From NCBI RefSeq assembly GCF_900100975.1, contig NZ_FNFX01000005.1, positions 62,001-126,000 of the forward strand: a DNA stretch of 64,000 nucleotides. The letters are read 5' to 3'. The translations under genes were made by a program, and so were the position numbers. Origin of the DNA: Methylophilus rhizosphaerae. Lineage in GTDB: Bacteria; Pseudomonadota; Gammaproteobacteria; Burkholderiales; Methylophilaceae. Shown here in pieces: positions 1 to 51,563 of the stretch. Within the stretch, counting starts at the first letter, position 1; every line of letters starts with the position of its first letter. Under the pieces are notes generated by a model. The model was not told where the DNA came from and did no database searches. It saw only the letters and a list, made by a program, of their open reading frames with translations.

Positions 1-592
1 CCCCTGAACAACCGGTCAACACCTTATCCTTACGCACTTGTGGCGCATTGGTGTTAGTTGCACCAACTTTTGGATCAGTGTTTTTAACATCCCAGACTTT
101 AGTTCCTGTTTTTGCATCCAGAGCCACCAGCACACCATCGTTCTGTTGCAGGAAGATCTTGCCATTGCCGTACCCGAGCCCGCGTGAGACGTTGTCACAG
201 CACAAAACAGCCTGTACCGAAGGGTCTTGTTTAGGGAAATAGGACCATACGATTTTCTGGTTGTCGTTCAAGTCCAGCGCGTATACGTTGTTTGGGAATG
301 CGGTATGTACATACATCATATTACCGATGACCAGTGGAGAACCTTCGTGACCACGGTTTACACCAGTTGCGAATGTCCAGGCAGCTTTCAGGTTTTTAAC
401 GTTGCCCTTATTCACTTGTGCCAGGGCGCTGTAACCCTGGTTTAAATATCCACCGCGCGGGTCTGCCCAGTTATTTGCATCTTTCATCGCAGCTTCATGA
501 TCAGCTGCAGTCCCAGCAAAAGCAGCCATGGGCAAAGTGGCGGATAGCGTCATCGCTAGCCCAAGTGATAACTTAATTTTGTTAATTTGCAT
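1..592 (-). CDS. xoxF: PQQ-dependent methanol dehydrogenase large subunit, XoxF-type, 5' part only
   Basis: Periplasmic quinoprotein that oxidises methanol to formaldehyde (or formate), passing electrons to a cytochrome c. Only the first 197 codons are present; the gene runs off the left edge. Visible are a signal peptide (about residues 1-26, ending AAFA), the propeller start with [10 protein letters not shown] and [19 protein letters not shown], the vicinal cysteine pair in VLCCDN characteristic of PQQ alcohol dehydrogenases, and LVALDAKTG. The wording resembles XoxF, perhaps clade 4, more than MxaF, but the extra Asp that defines lanthanide enzymes lies outside the window, so the subtype is inference. 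A good ribosome-binding site (GGAGATC) precedes the ATG. The gene is transcribed away from the MocR-type gene at 1144, across a long upstream region with several dyads. Confidence 0.8.
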
Positions 593-650: not shown

Positions 651-686
651 TTAGAACAATTATGCAAGGCGCCTAATTGTTTCTAA
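651..686. promoter_or_regulatory. Inverted repeat upstream of xoxF, candidate operator
   Basis: The arms TTAGA-ACAATTA (651-662) and TAATTGT-TTCTAA (674-686) are complementary apart from one extra base and flank an 11-nt GC-rich centre. The element lies 59-94 bp upstream of the xoxF start codon, where an activator or repressor would bind, or it forms a leader hairpin. Binding protein unknown. Confidence 0.4.
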
Positions 687-748
687 AAGTGAGCAAACTG
701 TAACCAAATGTTTCAGCCAACCAAACCTCCAGTTTCCAGTGACTATGC

Positions 749-787
749 TGGTCCAATCCATCCAGTTTTTTCATGTGTGATGGTCCA
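749..787. repeat. Direct repeat TGGTCCA x2, 32 bp apart
   Basis: Identical 7-mers at 749-755 and 781-787 sit in the middle of the xoxF/MocR intergenic region. A spacing of about three helical turns would put both on the same DNA face. Several studied MocR-family regulators bind direct repeats, so this is a candidate site for the neighbouring regulator. A chance 7-mer repeat cannot be excluded. Confidence 0.3.
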
Positions 788-897
788 GAGGCAATATTGA
801 TTGACATCGTTCATCGAGGAATTTATATTTCACTCAACGGAGATGGCATTCCTCCTAAAAGTCTCTACTTTTAAACCGCTTATCATCGCTAATGATG

Positions 898-974: not shown

Positions 975-1136
975 ATGATGGCCGACAGTGTCAAATCCAA
1001 CCTTCTCGCTACAAAGCTAGCATCCATATCACCGGAAAATTTTCGTTACCTAATAGCCGAACAGAGCCTGTTTTACTGTTTTCGCGCCCGTCCGACGGCT
1101 TCACTATTTCAGCCCCTGGCTAATCACTTGGGTTGA
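975..1136 (+). CDS. Possible small ORF (53 codons) directly ahead of the MocR-type gene
   Basis: It opens with ATG ATG behind a good ribosome-binding site (AAGGGA, 964-969) and ends with TGA 7 nt before the MocR start, so translation of the two could be coupled. The product is a mixed, non-membrane peptide (begins MMADSVKSNLL, contains SLFYCFRARPTASLFQPL). I recognise no family. It could be a leader peptide, a real small protein or a chance ORF. In favour are the ribosome-binding site and the tight spacing, while the MocR gene itself has only a weak site. Confidence 0.35.
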   Translation: MMADSVKSNLLATKLASISPENFRYLIAEQSLFYCFRARPTASLFQPLANHLG

Positions 1137-1143
1137 TACACGT

Positions 1144-2622
1144 ATGCTCAGGACATGGGACTTCAAGATAAGTCTTGACGGCAATAAGCCGGATACCACT
1201 TTGCATCTGCAAATCGTCAACGCCATTATTGGGGCCATTGAATCCGGTAGGCTGAAACCACTGACAGCGATGCCAGGCACCCGGGAGCTAGCGGCCAGCC
1301 TTAAAGTCAATCGGAAAACTGTTGTACTCGCCTATGGCGAGCTAATCTCTCAAGGCTGGCTGGTGACACAAAGCCGCAAAGGTACATTTGTAGGTGAAAA
1401 TAGCCCCTCTGGCAGCAGATATGGGATACATGCCACGCCATCTAAAATCACCAAATTGGAAGTAGATAGATCCAGCGCTTTCCGAGCCAGTCGCAATCAT
1501 CCTCGATCACTAAACCTGACCGAGAATTTTGCAGATGTCAGGTTAGTCCCCTATGAGCTTCTGGCTCGCTCATACAGAAGAGCGTTAGTCACATGCACGC
1601 GGCAAAATAGCATTAATAAAACAGACCCTATGGGAAGCCCGGAACTTCGCAAAGAAATTGCAGAAATGCTGAATATGGAAAAAGGCTTTAGGGTTTCCCA
1701 CGAACATACATGCCTGGTAAGCAGCTTTCAGGCAGCCCTCTTTGTTGCTGCCAAGATCACGGCCAAACCATTGGCGTCGGTAGCCATCGAATCGTTAACG
1801 TGCCCCCATGTGCGTGATACATTCAATGCATGCAATGTATCCATATTCAACATTGGCGTAGATGAAGAGGGTATCAAAGTCGATGAATTAGAGGAAATTT
1901 GTCAATCACAGGCAATCAGTGCTGTTTTTGTCACGCCTCAGCATCAATATCCAACCACAGTCACGCTCTCTGCCCACCGGCGAAAGAAATTATTAAAACT
2001 CGCCAATACGTATGATTTCATGATCATTGAAGACGATCATTACGGTCAGTATCACTTTTCAAAATTCCCGACTTTCCCCCTGGCCACCAGTGATACCAAT
2101 CACAAAGTGATTTATATTGGCAGCTTAAATAGCGATTTAGTCTCTGGGCTGAATATTAATTACTTGATTGGCCCTCCCTCATTAATGAAAAAATGTGCGG
2201 AAGCATTTTCCCTCATTGAACCAACCATCAACATCACCCAAGAAACCCTGATTACCGAGTTAATGCAATCCGGTGAGATCAAGCGGCACATACGCAAACT
2301 CACCAAAATCTACGCGAACAGAAGAGAGGCCTTTCAAAACTTGTTGCAAGAAGAGCTCGACGAATGGCTGACATTCTCATCGCCGGAAAGTGGGCTGGCA
2401 TTCTGGCTGAAATTCAAAACATATATCCAGATGGACGAATTAATCAATATTGCAGGGAACCACGGCATTACGCTTGAGGCTCATTCATACGCTGGCGGAG
2501 AGTCAGGTATCCAGGCAATCAGGGTAGGATTCGCGGCATTAAATGAAATTGAAATCACGATGGCGATAAAGAAATTAAAGAAGATCTTTGAAGAAGCGGT
2601 CAATCTCAAAAAGACAGCATAG
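1144..2622 (+). CDS. MocR-type (GntR/aminotransferase-like) transcriptional regulator without the PLP lysine
   Basis: 492 residues. An N-terminal GntR-type winged helix (about 15-85, including MPGTRELAASLKVNRKTV) is joined to a fold-type-I aminotransferase-like domain (about 120-485). Recognisable landmarks are MGSPELRKEI, TPQHQYPTTVTLS and IIEDDHYGQYHF. In active-type MocR proteins the Schiff-base lysine lies in a GSFSKTLAPGLR-like motif. Here the aligned segment reads GSLNSDLVSGLN (326-337), so Lys is replaced by Ser330 and the phosphate-binding Arg by Asn337. The ligand loop (SGxQ in relatives) is VSSFQ. The protein probably cannot form an internal aldimine and may bind another ligand or none. 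It is divergent from xoxF, so control of methanol oxidation is a reasonable inference. The second MocR in this window (42091) keeps the lysine. Confidence 0.85.
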   Translation: MLRTWDFKISLDGNKPDTTLHLQIVNAIIGAIESGRLKPLTAMPGTRELAASLKVNRKTVVLAYGELISQGWLVTQSRKGTFVGENSPSGSRYGIHATPSKITKLEVDRSSAFRASRNHPRSLNLTENFADVRLVPYELLARSYRRALVTCTRQNSINKTDPMGSPELRKEIAEMLNMEKGFRVSHEHTCLVSSFQAALFVAAKITAKPLASVAIESLTCPHVRDTFNACNVSIFNIGVDEEGIKVDELEEICQSQAISAVFVTPQHQYPTTVTLSAHRRKKLLKLANTYDFMIIEDDHYGQYHFSKFPTFPLATSDTNHKVIYIGSLNSDLVSGLNINYLIGPPSLMKKCAEAFSLIEPTINITQETLITELMQSGEIKRHIRKLTKIYANRREAFQNLLQEELDEWLTFSSPESGLAFWLKFKTYIQMDELINIAGNHGITLEAHSYAGGESGIQAIRVGFAALNEIEITMAIKKLKKIFEEAVNLKKTA

Positions 2623-2794: not shown

Positions 2795-3715
2795 TCAAAT
2801 TTCCTTGATGGCAGCTGGTGGCGGTTTGAACACATAAAAAAGGTTGGGTTCGCTGACGATATAAATATTGCCTTCATGATCAATCGACACGCCTTCCGCT
2901 TGTGGCACATTGTGATGCAGGCCATGAAAACCTTTCCATAGTGCCAATGATCCCATGGCCTGCCCGGCCTCATCGAACTGCTTGAGCAGCCTGGATTCAT
3001 CGCTCAGCAAAAACAAATGACCTGACTGTTCGTGATAAGTCACTGAAGACAAATCACGCAATGCCCAATTCAATGCGAAGTCATACTGCCTTAAATGTTC
3101 GACCACCATCTGGTTTTGCTTGTGCCCGGCAGGATGGTAAAGCCCGGCGACAGACATCACATATTTGGGATCGCGCTCTTTTACGACGATCAATCGATGA
3201 TGGACACTATCCCACGAAACGCCTTCAAAATTCTTGTTGCCGCGCTCATTCATGCCAAACTTCAGCAGGTTCGCATCCGTGACTGAGACTTCACTTGTTC
3301 CTGGTTTAAGCTGCAACAACCACAACCGGCTTTCATGTTCATCAGCCACGACATAGTAATCCTGCTCCACATGCGTGATGCCCTCAAGGTCATCCGTGCC
3401 ATGGACCTTTATCTCACGTACGGGTGTCCCATCACGTTGCAGTTCGACAATCACGCTCGTATGATTGAGCACGGTGAACAAAGTACCCGTTTCATGATTA
3501 AACGTCAGCCCGGAAGTGTTTTCATAACTGGCCAGGGGCTTGGCTTCAATCGCCACCTGGTAACGGCCGAGATCCAGGCCGTTATGCTCGGCACCCTGCA
3601 ACTGGTGCCACAAATGCCATGCCAGCGCTTCAGCCCGCATGACATACAGCGCAATCAACACCAGCCCCACCAGCATCAGCGCCATAGCCACTTTGATACT
3701 TTTACGATACCGCAT
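2795..3715 (-). CDS. SdiA-regulated family (YjiK-like) beta-propeller protein, membrane anchored
   Basis: 306 residues from the chosen ATG. An N-terminal hydrophobic segment (about 10-28, MALMLVGLVLIALYVM) acts as signal anchor, so the rest is likely periplasmic. The remainder shows SdiA-regulated-family landmarks: SGLTFNHETGTLFTVLNH, DDLEGITHVEQDYYVVADE, NKNFEGVSWD and QAEGVSIDHEGNIYIVSEPN, a repeated propeller pattern of the type E-G-(I/V)-(T/S). The start 15 nt downstream of an in-frame ATG was preferred because GGGAGA sits correctly before it. The family's biochemical role is unknown. The gene is monocistronic between two terminator/promoter regions. Confidence 0.75.
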   Translation of the reverse strand: MRYRKSIKVAMALMLVGLVLIALYVMRAEALAWHLWHQLQGAEHNGLDLGRYQVAIEAKPLASYENTSGLTFNHETGTLFTVLNHTSVIVELQRDGTPVREIKVHGTDDLEGITHVEQDYYVVADEHESRLWLLQLKPGTSEVSVTDANLLKFGMNERGNKNFEGVSWDSVHHRLIVVKERDPKYVMSVAGLYHPAGHKQNQMVVEHLRQYDFALNWALRDLSSVTYHEQSGHLFLLSDESRLLKQFDEAGQAMGSLALWKGFHGLHHNVPQAEGVSIDHEGNIYIVSEPNLFYVFKPPPAAIKEI

Positions 3716-3936
3716 ACTCTTCTCTCCCATTAGCTATCTTGCAGACTAGCGGCGCAGGGAAGAGTTCCTTTGAGATAGGGCATGGGCATACAAACATACT
3801 CCCGAGTCTGAAGACCGACTTTGGAGGCAGCAAAACAGGCTACGAGAAAGCTATAAACAGGAAGAAAAAAAGATTAAGGCGCACATTTCACAGCAGCAGA
3901 CAGAAGGAGAGATACGGGCTGGCGGCAAGCGGCAGA

Positions 3937-41973: not shown

Positions 41974-42090
41974 GACAGACAATAACCTCAGAATGAAAAA
42001 CGCTATCCTAAATGAGCTGCCGCTTGCAAAACAGATCCAGTTTGGATTTAATTTACCATATCAGTGATTGAACCTAATGGATGGAGCAAG

Positions 42091-43509
42091 GTGAAAAAGT
42101 ACGAAGTCATTGCCGAAGAAATGGCCGCCGCTATCCGGCAAGGCCTGCTCAAGCGTGGTGACAAACTCCCCTCCATCCGCCAGGTACAGGCATTGAAACA
42201 GGTGAATGCGTCCACCGTTTTCCAGGCCTATTATTTACTGGAAGCACGCGGCTTACTGGTCGCCCGCCCGCGCTCCGGCTACTACGTGGCAGGCAATCTG
42301 CACGCAGAACGCTCACTAGCGCCAGGCGGCATGCCACCTGCCGGGCTGCCCACCATGTTACAGGTCAGTGACCTGGTGTTTACCCTGCTGGATCGCATCA
42401 AAGATCCGCAACATGTCCCTTTCGGCTCGGCCTTCCCCAGCCCCCGGCACTTTCCCTTGGCAAAACTGGCGGACCATATGGCAAGCGCAGTACGCCGTAT
42501 ACACCCTTCTGATACGGTCAGCGATATCGGCCAGGGAGACAATGCACTCAGGCGCCAGATCGCTCTGCGTTATCAGCTGGATGGCACACACACGGACGCG
42601 TCAGACATCGTCGTGACCAACGGTGCACTGGAAGCACTGAACCTCAGTCTGGCGGCAGTGACCCAGCCCGGCGACAGCGTCATTATCGAATCACCGAGCT
42701 TTTATGCTGCGCTACAAGCTATTGAGCGCATGGGATTGCGCGCGATTGAAGTACCCAGCCATCCGGAATATGGCATTGATTTGATGGCACTTGAGCAGGC
42801 GATTATCCAGCACCAGCCCAAGGCCTGCTGGCTGATGACCAACTTCCAGAATCCGACCGGCAGCCTGATGCCGGAAGACAAAAAACAGGCATTGGTCGCA
42901 TTGATTACACGCTACCAGTTACCGTTGATTGAAGATGATGTCTATCGCGAATTGTATTTTGGCAAACAGCGCCCATTACCGGCAAAAACCTGGGATAGCG
43001 AAGGCTGGGTCATGCATTGCAGCTCGTTTTCCAAGACACTGGCACCGGGTTACCGTGTCGGCTGGGTCTCCGCCGGCAGGTTTACCAGCCAGATCACGCG
43101 CCTGAAAATCTCCACCACGCTGGCAACCTCCATTCCGGCCCAGCACGCCCTGGCCAGCTACCTGGCCAAAGGCGGTTATGACAAACACCTGCGCCAGCTC
43201 AGGCACCAGCTGATGTTGCAGCAATTGCAGTTTTCGCAGGCTATTTACCAGCACTTTCCCGAACAGGTGCGATTTAACCTGCCTCAAGGTGGTTATTTCT
43301 TCTGGATGCAACTGCCGCAACATATTGATAGCCTGCAATTGTTCCAGCAGGCAATCGCGCACAACATCAGCCTGGCACCTGGCCATATGTTCTCGTCACA
43401 ACAGCAATACGCCAATTTTATCCGCCTGAATTACGGCCATCCACTGGATACGCATAGTCTGCAGGCAATTCAGGCACTGGGCACACTGATGAAGCAGGTA
43501 TCAAACTGA
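42091..43509 (+). CDS. MocR-type PLP-dependent transcriptional regulator (intact PLP lysine)
   Basis: 472 residues from the GTG behind GGAG; a GTG 27 nt upstream is also in frame. GntR winged helix (about 1-70; KLPSIRQVQALKQVNASTVFQ) and aminotransferase-like domain (about 105-465). The PLP site is complete: Schiff-base Lys about 315 in SSFSKTLAPGYRVGW, TNFQNPTGSLMP and IEDDVYRELYF. It should bind PLP, unlike the MocR-type protein at 1144. Ligand and target are unknown; it is followed by ccoG after 90 bp and is divergent from the small protein at 41626. Confidence 0.9.
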   Translation: MKKYEVIAEEMAAAIRQGLLKRGDKLPSIRQVQALKQVNASTVFQAYYLLEARGLLVARPRSGYYVAGNLHAERSLAPGGMPPAGLPTMLQVSDLVFTLLDRIKDPQHVPFGSAFPSPRHFPLAKLADHMASAVRRIHPSDTVSDIGQGDNALRRQIALRYQLDGTHTDASDIVVTNGALEALNLSLAAVTQPGDSVIIESPSFYAALQAIERMGLRAIEVPSHPEYGIDLMALEQAIIQHQPKACWLMTNFQNPTGSLMPEDKKQALVALITRYQLPLIEDDVYRELYFGKQRPLPAKTWDSEGWVMHCSSFSKTLAPGYRVGWVSAGRFTSQITRLKISTTLATSIPAQHALASYLAKGGYDKHLRQLRHQLMLQQLQFSQAIYQHFPEQVRFNLPQGGYFFWMQLPQHIDSLQLFQQAIAHNISLAPGHMFSSQQQYANFIRLNYGHPLDTHSLQAIQALGTLMKQVSN

Positions 43510-51487: not shown

Positions 51488-51563
51488 TGGTAGGGTGTGC
51501 GGGGATCGAACCCACGACAAACGGATTAAAAGTCCGCTGCTCTACCAGCTGAGCTAACACCCC
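51488..51563 (-). tRNA. tRNA-Lys (anticodon TTT), CCA encoded
   Basis: 76 nt on the minus strand. D-arm TTAGCTCAGCTGGTAGAGC, anticodon loop ACTTTTAAT, T-arm with GGTTCGATCC and encoded CCA. The acceptor pairs GGGGTGT with ACACCCT, beginning with a G-U wobble. All arms fold. Confidence 0.97.

Follow-up and report, generated by a model that had tools for sequence, protein, structure and literature searches.

The xoxF-MocR locus and its altered cofactor site

The window, by which we mean the whole 64,000-nucleotide stretch of Methylophilus rhizosphaerae DNA analysed here, carries near its start a gene for a MocR-type regulator that lacks the lysine of the site for pyridoxal phosphate (PLP, the vitamin B6 cofactor). 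The gene lies at 1144..2622 on the plus strand and encodes 492 residues, as assigned from alignment with GabR, Pfam, AlphaFold2 and Foldseek, and its open reading frame contains no internal stop codon. Divergent from it is the 5' part of xoxF (1..592, minus strand, if the ATG of MQINKIKL is taken as its start), which continues past the window and forms a full open reading frame of 631 residues at L054 6710-8605. Downstream of xoxF, on the same strand, are crcB (PF02537; L054 6181-6561, minus strand) and a DUF190 gene (PF02641; L054 5854-6168, minus strand), both assigned with Pfam. A terminator-like hairpin with eight T, seen by eye between xoxF and crcB and absent from the scanner's list, weakens the idea of a plain xoxF-crcB operon. 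Beside the xoxF-MocR pair, a gene for an SdiA-regulated-domain protein (PF06977) occupies 2795-3730 on the minus strand, and look-alikes identified by eye are found near xoxF-MocR pairs at L060 12045-12956, L061 3978-4895 and L062 11749-12663. Elsewhere in the window, Rfam places a tRNA gene at 51491-51563 on the minus strand.

Between the two divergent genes, a consensus search located a putative two-box operator, CTGGACCA-N15-CTGGATG, which matches the consensus perfectly (759..788, minus strand). Promoter-like sites, of which the stretch scanned holds three, not above the shuffled sequences (mean 4.8), face both genes: TTGACA-17-TATATT (11/12; 801..829, plus strand) is directed towards the MocR gene and the weak TTTAGA-17-CATAAT (9/12; 659..687, minus strand) towards xoxF. 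The predicted MocR leader contains, directly after the former site, a fluoride riboswitch aptamer (RF01734; 830..908, plus strand; Rfam score 43.8 bits against a gathering score of 34), and the presumed start lies some 60 bases downstream of the operator centre. This riboswitch was unexpected and does not appear in the earlier note on this DNA. A putative gene of 53 residues (975..1136, plus strand), called as an open reading frame and free of Pfam matches, is situated between the riboswitch and the MocR gene and stops 7 bases short of the MocR start.

The focal protein has the domain order of a MocR regulator, with a GntR winged helix at the N-terminus (PF00392; residues 22-83, 48.6 bits) and a C-terminal aminotransferase domain of fold type I (Aminotran_1_2, PF00155; residues 155-478, 53.9 bits). 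Based on its alignment with Bacillus subtilis GabR, which spans residues 6-480 and served as the reference for residue positions, GabR TFSKSLLPGLRISY stands opposite SLNSDLVSGLNINY in the focal protein. Ser330 (codon 2131..2133, plus strand; letters rechecked) occupies the position of the PLP lysine, GabR Lys312, and Asn337 (codon 2152..2154, plus strand; letters rechecked) that of GabR Arg319, which we take to be the residue holding the PLP phosphate. The SGxQ loop is replaced by VSSFQ at residues 192-196. All three changes had been read from the letters in the earlier note and are seen again in the alignment, which adds two more: GabR Tyr205 becomes Cys220 and Tyr281 becomes His299. Asp279 is retained as Asp297. 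The roles of GabR Tyr205, Asp279, Tyr281 and Lys312 are taken from the available text of PMC6677901, which describes Asp279 and Lys312 as conserved across all MocR clusters.

The predicted structure, obtained with 43 aligned sequences, has a mean pLDDT of 87.8, and its top Foldseek matches are GabR and PdxR (GabR 4n0b, E 2.8e-35). Retention of the winged helix and of the overall fold, also proposed from the letters, is thus borne out by Pfam and by the model; the observation of a changed PLP site within an intact predicted fold is confirmed. The winged-helix residues N56, R57, K58 and T59 do not vary in either of two alignments, of 15 and 43 sequences. With the PdxR profile (NCBIfam NF052282), the focal protein scores 313.3 bits, below the curated cut-off of 320. 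GabR and PdxR, both of solved structure, have the domain order and fold in common with the focal protein, but they bind PLP through a lysine, whereas the focal protein is altered at the lysine, the phosphate arginine, the stacking tyrosine and the Tyr281 position. Its sequence marks it as a MocR protein by ancestry and domain layout but, with Ser330 at the position of GabR Lys312, presumably not as one that depends on PLP. Covalent attachment of PLP at the usual place should accordingly be ruled out by this sequence.

A sequencing error is an unlikely cause of these changes, because the protein of an independent genome, G161, has a parallel change: this relative, 49% identical and from another genus-level group, has Gly and Asn at the positions of Ser330 and Asn337, and its gene is also divergent from xoxF. 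For single cases in the subfamily such as L120 and L126, such an error is not excluded. The second MocR of the window (42064-43509) reads SSFSKTLAPGYR and so has the full motif, as had been said, and the closest paralogue in the same genome, 40% identical, likewise has the full PLP motif. The impression of a single odd protein did not survive comparison with other genomes, where the focal gene proved to be one of several cases of lysine loss beside xoxF.

Lysine loss in a subfamily linked to methanol dehydrogenase genes

In 187 Methylophilaceae genomes, searched with a second Lys-less type and a truncated type as well as with the focal protein (E values no higher than 1e-55), we found a subfamily of 85 members in 63 genomes, 70 members with the focal protein as query and 15 truncated ones; the neighbourhoods of all 85 were included. 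A divergently oriented methanol dehydrogenase gene flanks as many as 74 of the 85: xoxF in 48 cases and moxR, of the mxa accessory operon, in 26. Among the remaining 11, a divergent moxR lies some 3 kb upstream of three (L069, L081 and L089), the contig ends less than 0.5 kb upstream of six, L056 shows no xoxF or moxR match in the 0.7 kb available, and L059 has other neighbours, with neither xoxF nor moxR nearby. The link to xoxF suspected in the earlier note is therefore both real and general; the conserved position, together with the common operator described below, strongly supports a connection between the focal regulator and xoxF at the level of sequence.

The lysine is present in every moxR-linked member (26/26). 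The Lys-less variants that the earlier note suggested seeking beside xoxF do exist in Methylophilaceae: the lysine is absent from 27 of the 48 xoxF-linked members and present in the other 21. Across lineages, six residues replace it, namely Ser, Gly, His, Arg, Asn and Ala. The Lys-less xoxF-linked proteins comprise the focal protein (Ser), the G161 protein (Gly), L072 (Arg), L120 (Asn), those of three Methylophilus genomes (L060-L062, His), three Methylovorus genomes (Ser) and two genomes of group g15 (Asn), together with 15 truncated proteins, each 363-386 residues long and with Gly (14) or Ala (1) at this position, which have no C-terminal small domain. Three further Lys-less members occur among the contig-edge cases. 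The truncated type (L063 7278-8381, L128-L141) stands beside a divergent xoxF in 15 of 22 Methylophilus genomes, the focal genome included.

Among the tabulated PLP residues, L072 is changed in the lysine alone and its sister L121 keeps the lysine; loss of the lysine can therefore come first. In L120, a loop residue is changed besides the lysine. L117 and L127 keep the lysine and have the phosphate arginine replaced by Asp or Asn, and are perhaps intermediate states. In control loci of other MocR subfamilies, the lysine is kept in 19 of 19. A wider scan of contigs, in which the best 80 loci of a larger number were considered, found the lysine in all 45 of these best loci that had no xoxF or moxR match, while all six Lys-less loci among the 80 had an adjoining xoxF. 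Lys-bearing relatives of 43-44% identity (L156, L157 and L159) have no xoxF or moxR in the stretch examined.

In a tree of 78 rows, the distribution of the lysine demands six changes of state, at least four of them forced by starred branches. Constraining the 15 Lys-less rows of this tree to a single clade was rejected with a p-AU of 1e-49, which rules out one loss only. When the truncated rows were added and the others thinned, five changes were needed and four were forced; a single loss may account for both the truncated group and L060-L062. The change probably ran from presence to absence of the lysine, because the nine outgroup rows in the tree all keep it. Several losses can safely be claimed, but their exact number cannot, since the trees are quick ones and the Lys-less branches are long.

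Purifying selection is seen in pairs of Lys-less genes. Of 22 pairs tried for dN/dS (NG86, whole gene), 3 were saturated; the ratio was 0.05-0.09 in ten computable Lys-less pairs, the focal gene not being among them, and 0.03-0.12 in eight Lys-bearing pairs. Compared over 486 codons with its nearest relative, the focal gene differs at 41% of first, 28% of second and 63% of third codon positions.

A putative two-box operator common to both kinds of regulator

A putative operator of repeated boxes in the divergent intergenic region, as in MocR/GabR systems, was found at 759-788 in the form of a perfect direct repeat. The same arrangement is common to Lys-less and Lys-bearing members: CTGGACCA, followed 23-24 bp on by CTGGAKG. 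CTGGACC is present in 57 of the 85 upstream regions; in one set of shuffled regions, the most frequent 7-mer reached 26. In its loose form (CTGGACC, CTGGTCC or CTGGnCCA), the box precedes 25/26 moxR-linked members, 21/21 Lys-bearing and 10/12 full-length Lys-less xoxF-linked members, and all 15 truncated loci. The strict two-box form, CTGGnCC followed by C[TA]GGn[TG]G, is found at 21/26, 16/21, 7/12 and 15/15 of these loci, respectively, that is, at 22/27 Lys-less and 37/47 Lys-bearing linked loci, with shuffle means of 0 to 0.005. The start-to-start spacing is 23 or 24 in every two-box match. The strict operator is absent from five of the 12 full-length Lys-less loci (L060, L062, L073, L123 and L125), and in L060 and L062 the loose box is absent too.

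The perfect 30-base consensus occurs twice in the focal genome, once in the gap between the Lys-bearing MocR gene and moxR and once at 759-788 beside xoxF; by our own arithmetic its chance expectation is about 0.04, with the consensus derived from loci that include both sites. Among the best 80 loci of the wider scan, CTGGACC is also upstream in 26 of the 45 without xoxF or moxR, and on this distribution the box is older than the link to methanol dehydrogenase. Degenerate operator matches were discarded as a basis for a regulon, as allowing up to three mismatches gave 84 + 101 matches, not far above the 66 + 60 of the control.

The boxes resemble those of known regulators. In the available text of the respective papers, TauR is described with direct repeats CTGGACYTAA (PMC5320631) and YczR with ACTGGAC boxes (PMC4944035), both similar to CTGGACCA. 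Those regulators have other target genes, and the present subfamily has a spacing of 23-24 and CTGGAKG as its second box. The regulon survey PMC5320631 contains, in its main text, no words that start with "methanol", "methylo" or "mxa".

Interpretation of the Lys-less regulator

Taking the altered site, the gene order and the operator together, we give about an even chance to the reading that the focal gene encodes a cofactor-free, inducer-blind MocR regulator of the adjacent lanthanide-type xoxF, locked in one state. It would descend from a regulator that bore the lysine, presumably depended on PLP and controlled methanol dehydrogenase genes in Methylophilaceae; among the descendants, the members divergent from mxa retained the lysine and those divergent from xoxF shed it several times. 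In the focal protein, dimerisation through the aminotransferase fold would persist, as would binding to the two-box CTGGACC operator in the control region of xoxF. Lacking an internal aldimine, and presumably PLP itself, the regulator could not answer a PLP-mediated inducer and would remain fixed as either activator or repressor. Its output would then be set by the amount of regulator rather than by any bound ligand, and xoxF would no longer follow the signal to which the Lys-bearing paralogue at mxa responds.

A laboratory precedent for such a locked state is the Lys302His mutant of EnuR, which, in the accessible part of PMC8739950, is free of PLP, retains the size of a dimer and represses constitutively; the same swap of Lys for His is natural in L060-L062. 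The EnuR mutant is man-made, and the natural Lys-less proteins may differ from it in state and direction. A counterexample is MpaR of Pseudomonas aeruginosa, a MocR that lies beside the gene under its control, as proposed here: in the text available from PMC10790758, its Lys314Ala mutant left target expression undetectable, so that MpaR requires its lysine, unlike the proposed focal protein, and loss of the lysine can kill function. Further points against an inducer-blind regulator of xoxF are that 21 of the 48 xoxF-linked members keep the lysine, so that its loss is not required beside xoxF, that the strict operator is missing from 5/12 full-length Lys-less loci, and that the losses were counted on quick trees with long Lys-less branches.

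The earlier note had supposed that a PLP-free MocR senses something else, tied to methanol or lanthanide supply. A vacated PLP pocket that binds another ligand would fit the aminotransferase fold kept in full-length members, the purifying selection on Lys-less pairs and the presence of xoxF as the neighbour. Six different replacements of the lysine and the loss of the small domain from 15 members are unexpected for one common new ligand, and L072 is altered, among the tabulated residues, in the lysine alone; this analysis gave no support to a methanol- or lanthanide-linked signal. We consider such a sensor unlikely, and with the truncated proteins and the locked EnuR mutant in mind, we rate a new sensor as no more likely than an inducer-blind regulator.

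It is also rather improbable that the Lys-less protein acts as a heterodimer partner or competitor of the Lys-bearing paralogue of its own genome at a common operator. That paralogue sits at mxa, the perfect operator lies at both promoters, and both kinds of regulator are present in 12 of the 63 genomes, all of which would suit such an interplay. However, 17 of the 63 genomes have only Lys-less members of the subfamily (11 of these genomes are at least 90% complete), and a partnership with a Lys-bearing member of the subfamily therefore cannot be obligatory for the group; mxaI is present in 11 of the 17.

We regard it as very unlikely that the focal gene is a mere neighbour of xoxF with no control over it. 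L059, which has no xoxF or moxR nearby, and relatives outside Methylophilaceae, which carry the CTGGACC box without either gene, would fit such a view, but divergent pairs with xoxF or moxR account for 74 of 85 members, and the operator in the gap is conserved. That the focal gene is a once PLP-dependent regulator now decaying into a pseudogene, as the joint change of several PLP residues and the long branch might suggest, is rejected as extremely improbable in view of the intact reading frame, the constraint on codon positions, the low dN/dS of other Lys-less pairs, the invariant winged-helix residues and the perfect operator.

Descriptions of MocR regulators usually centre on the PLP cofactor, and the lysine is called conserved across all clusters in the text available from PMC6677901. 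Its repeated loss, beside xoxF wherever the neighbour is visible, thus amounts to a natural experiment on the role of the cofactor. The subfamily also supplies candidates for the control of mxa and xoxF in Methylophilaceae, where the literature searched, as far as its text was available, names no regulator, and the common operator opens the choice between calcium and lanthanide in this family to simple binding and deletion tests. The system can be likened to MxaY of Methylomicrobium buryatense, the regulator of the lanthanide switch between mxa and xoxF control in the accessible text of PMC5018670. Our search, which most subscription papers lay beyond, found no publication joining MocR with xoxF. 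In the portions of text available, the matches for MocR together with methanol dehydrogenase concern ectoine and glycolate, and the gntR gene in PMC3728764 belongs to the methylcitric acid cycle. No publication was found on a fluoride riboswitch with methanol dehydrogenase, or on fluoride, xoxF and riboswitch together. MxaY, a sensor kinase of another family, is not known to be a MocR, unlike the focal protein.

Fluoride renders calcium and lanthanides insoluble, and control of the focal regulator by fluoride is a conjecture, drawn from the predicted leader, that can be tested. More speculatively, and in our view quite unlikely in its entirety, PLP-bearing MocRs at mxa and repeatedly evolved PLP-free MocRs at xoxF might work through one operator, the latter by dosage and not by ligand; at the focal locus the riboswitch would set the dosage, so that fluoride, sensed by the RNA, would act by way of the cofactor-free regulator on xoxF and perhaps also, if transcription reads through, on crcB-DUF190. 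The riboswitch is not a general feature of MocR loci: it was found in 2 of the 26 loci scanned, at the MocR leader in the focal locus only, the copy in L112 being about 4 kb from the MocR gene. Within the genus Methylophilus, 3 of 22 genomes have a fluoride riboswitch above the cut-off, sub-threshold matches inside open reading frames (G003, G005 (1), G021 (1) and G004 (2)) having been set aside. The focal genome has two crcB genes and the other 21 Methylophilus genomes one each. In the remaining two Methylophilus genomes with a fluoride riboswitch above the cut-off, it (43 bits; L245 7637-7721 and L244 7282-7366) precedes what appears by eye to be a gene for a LysR-type regulator.
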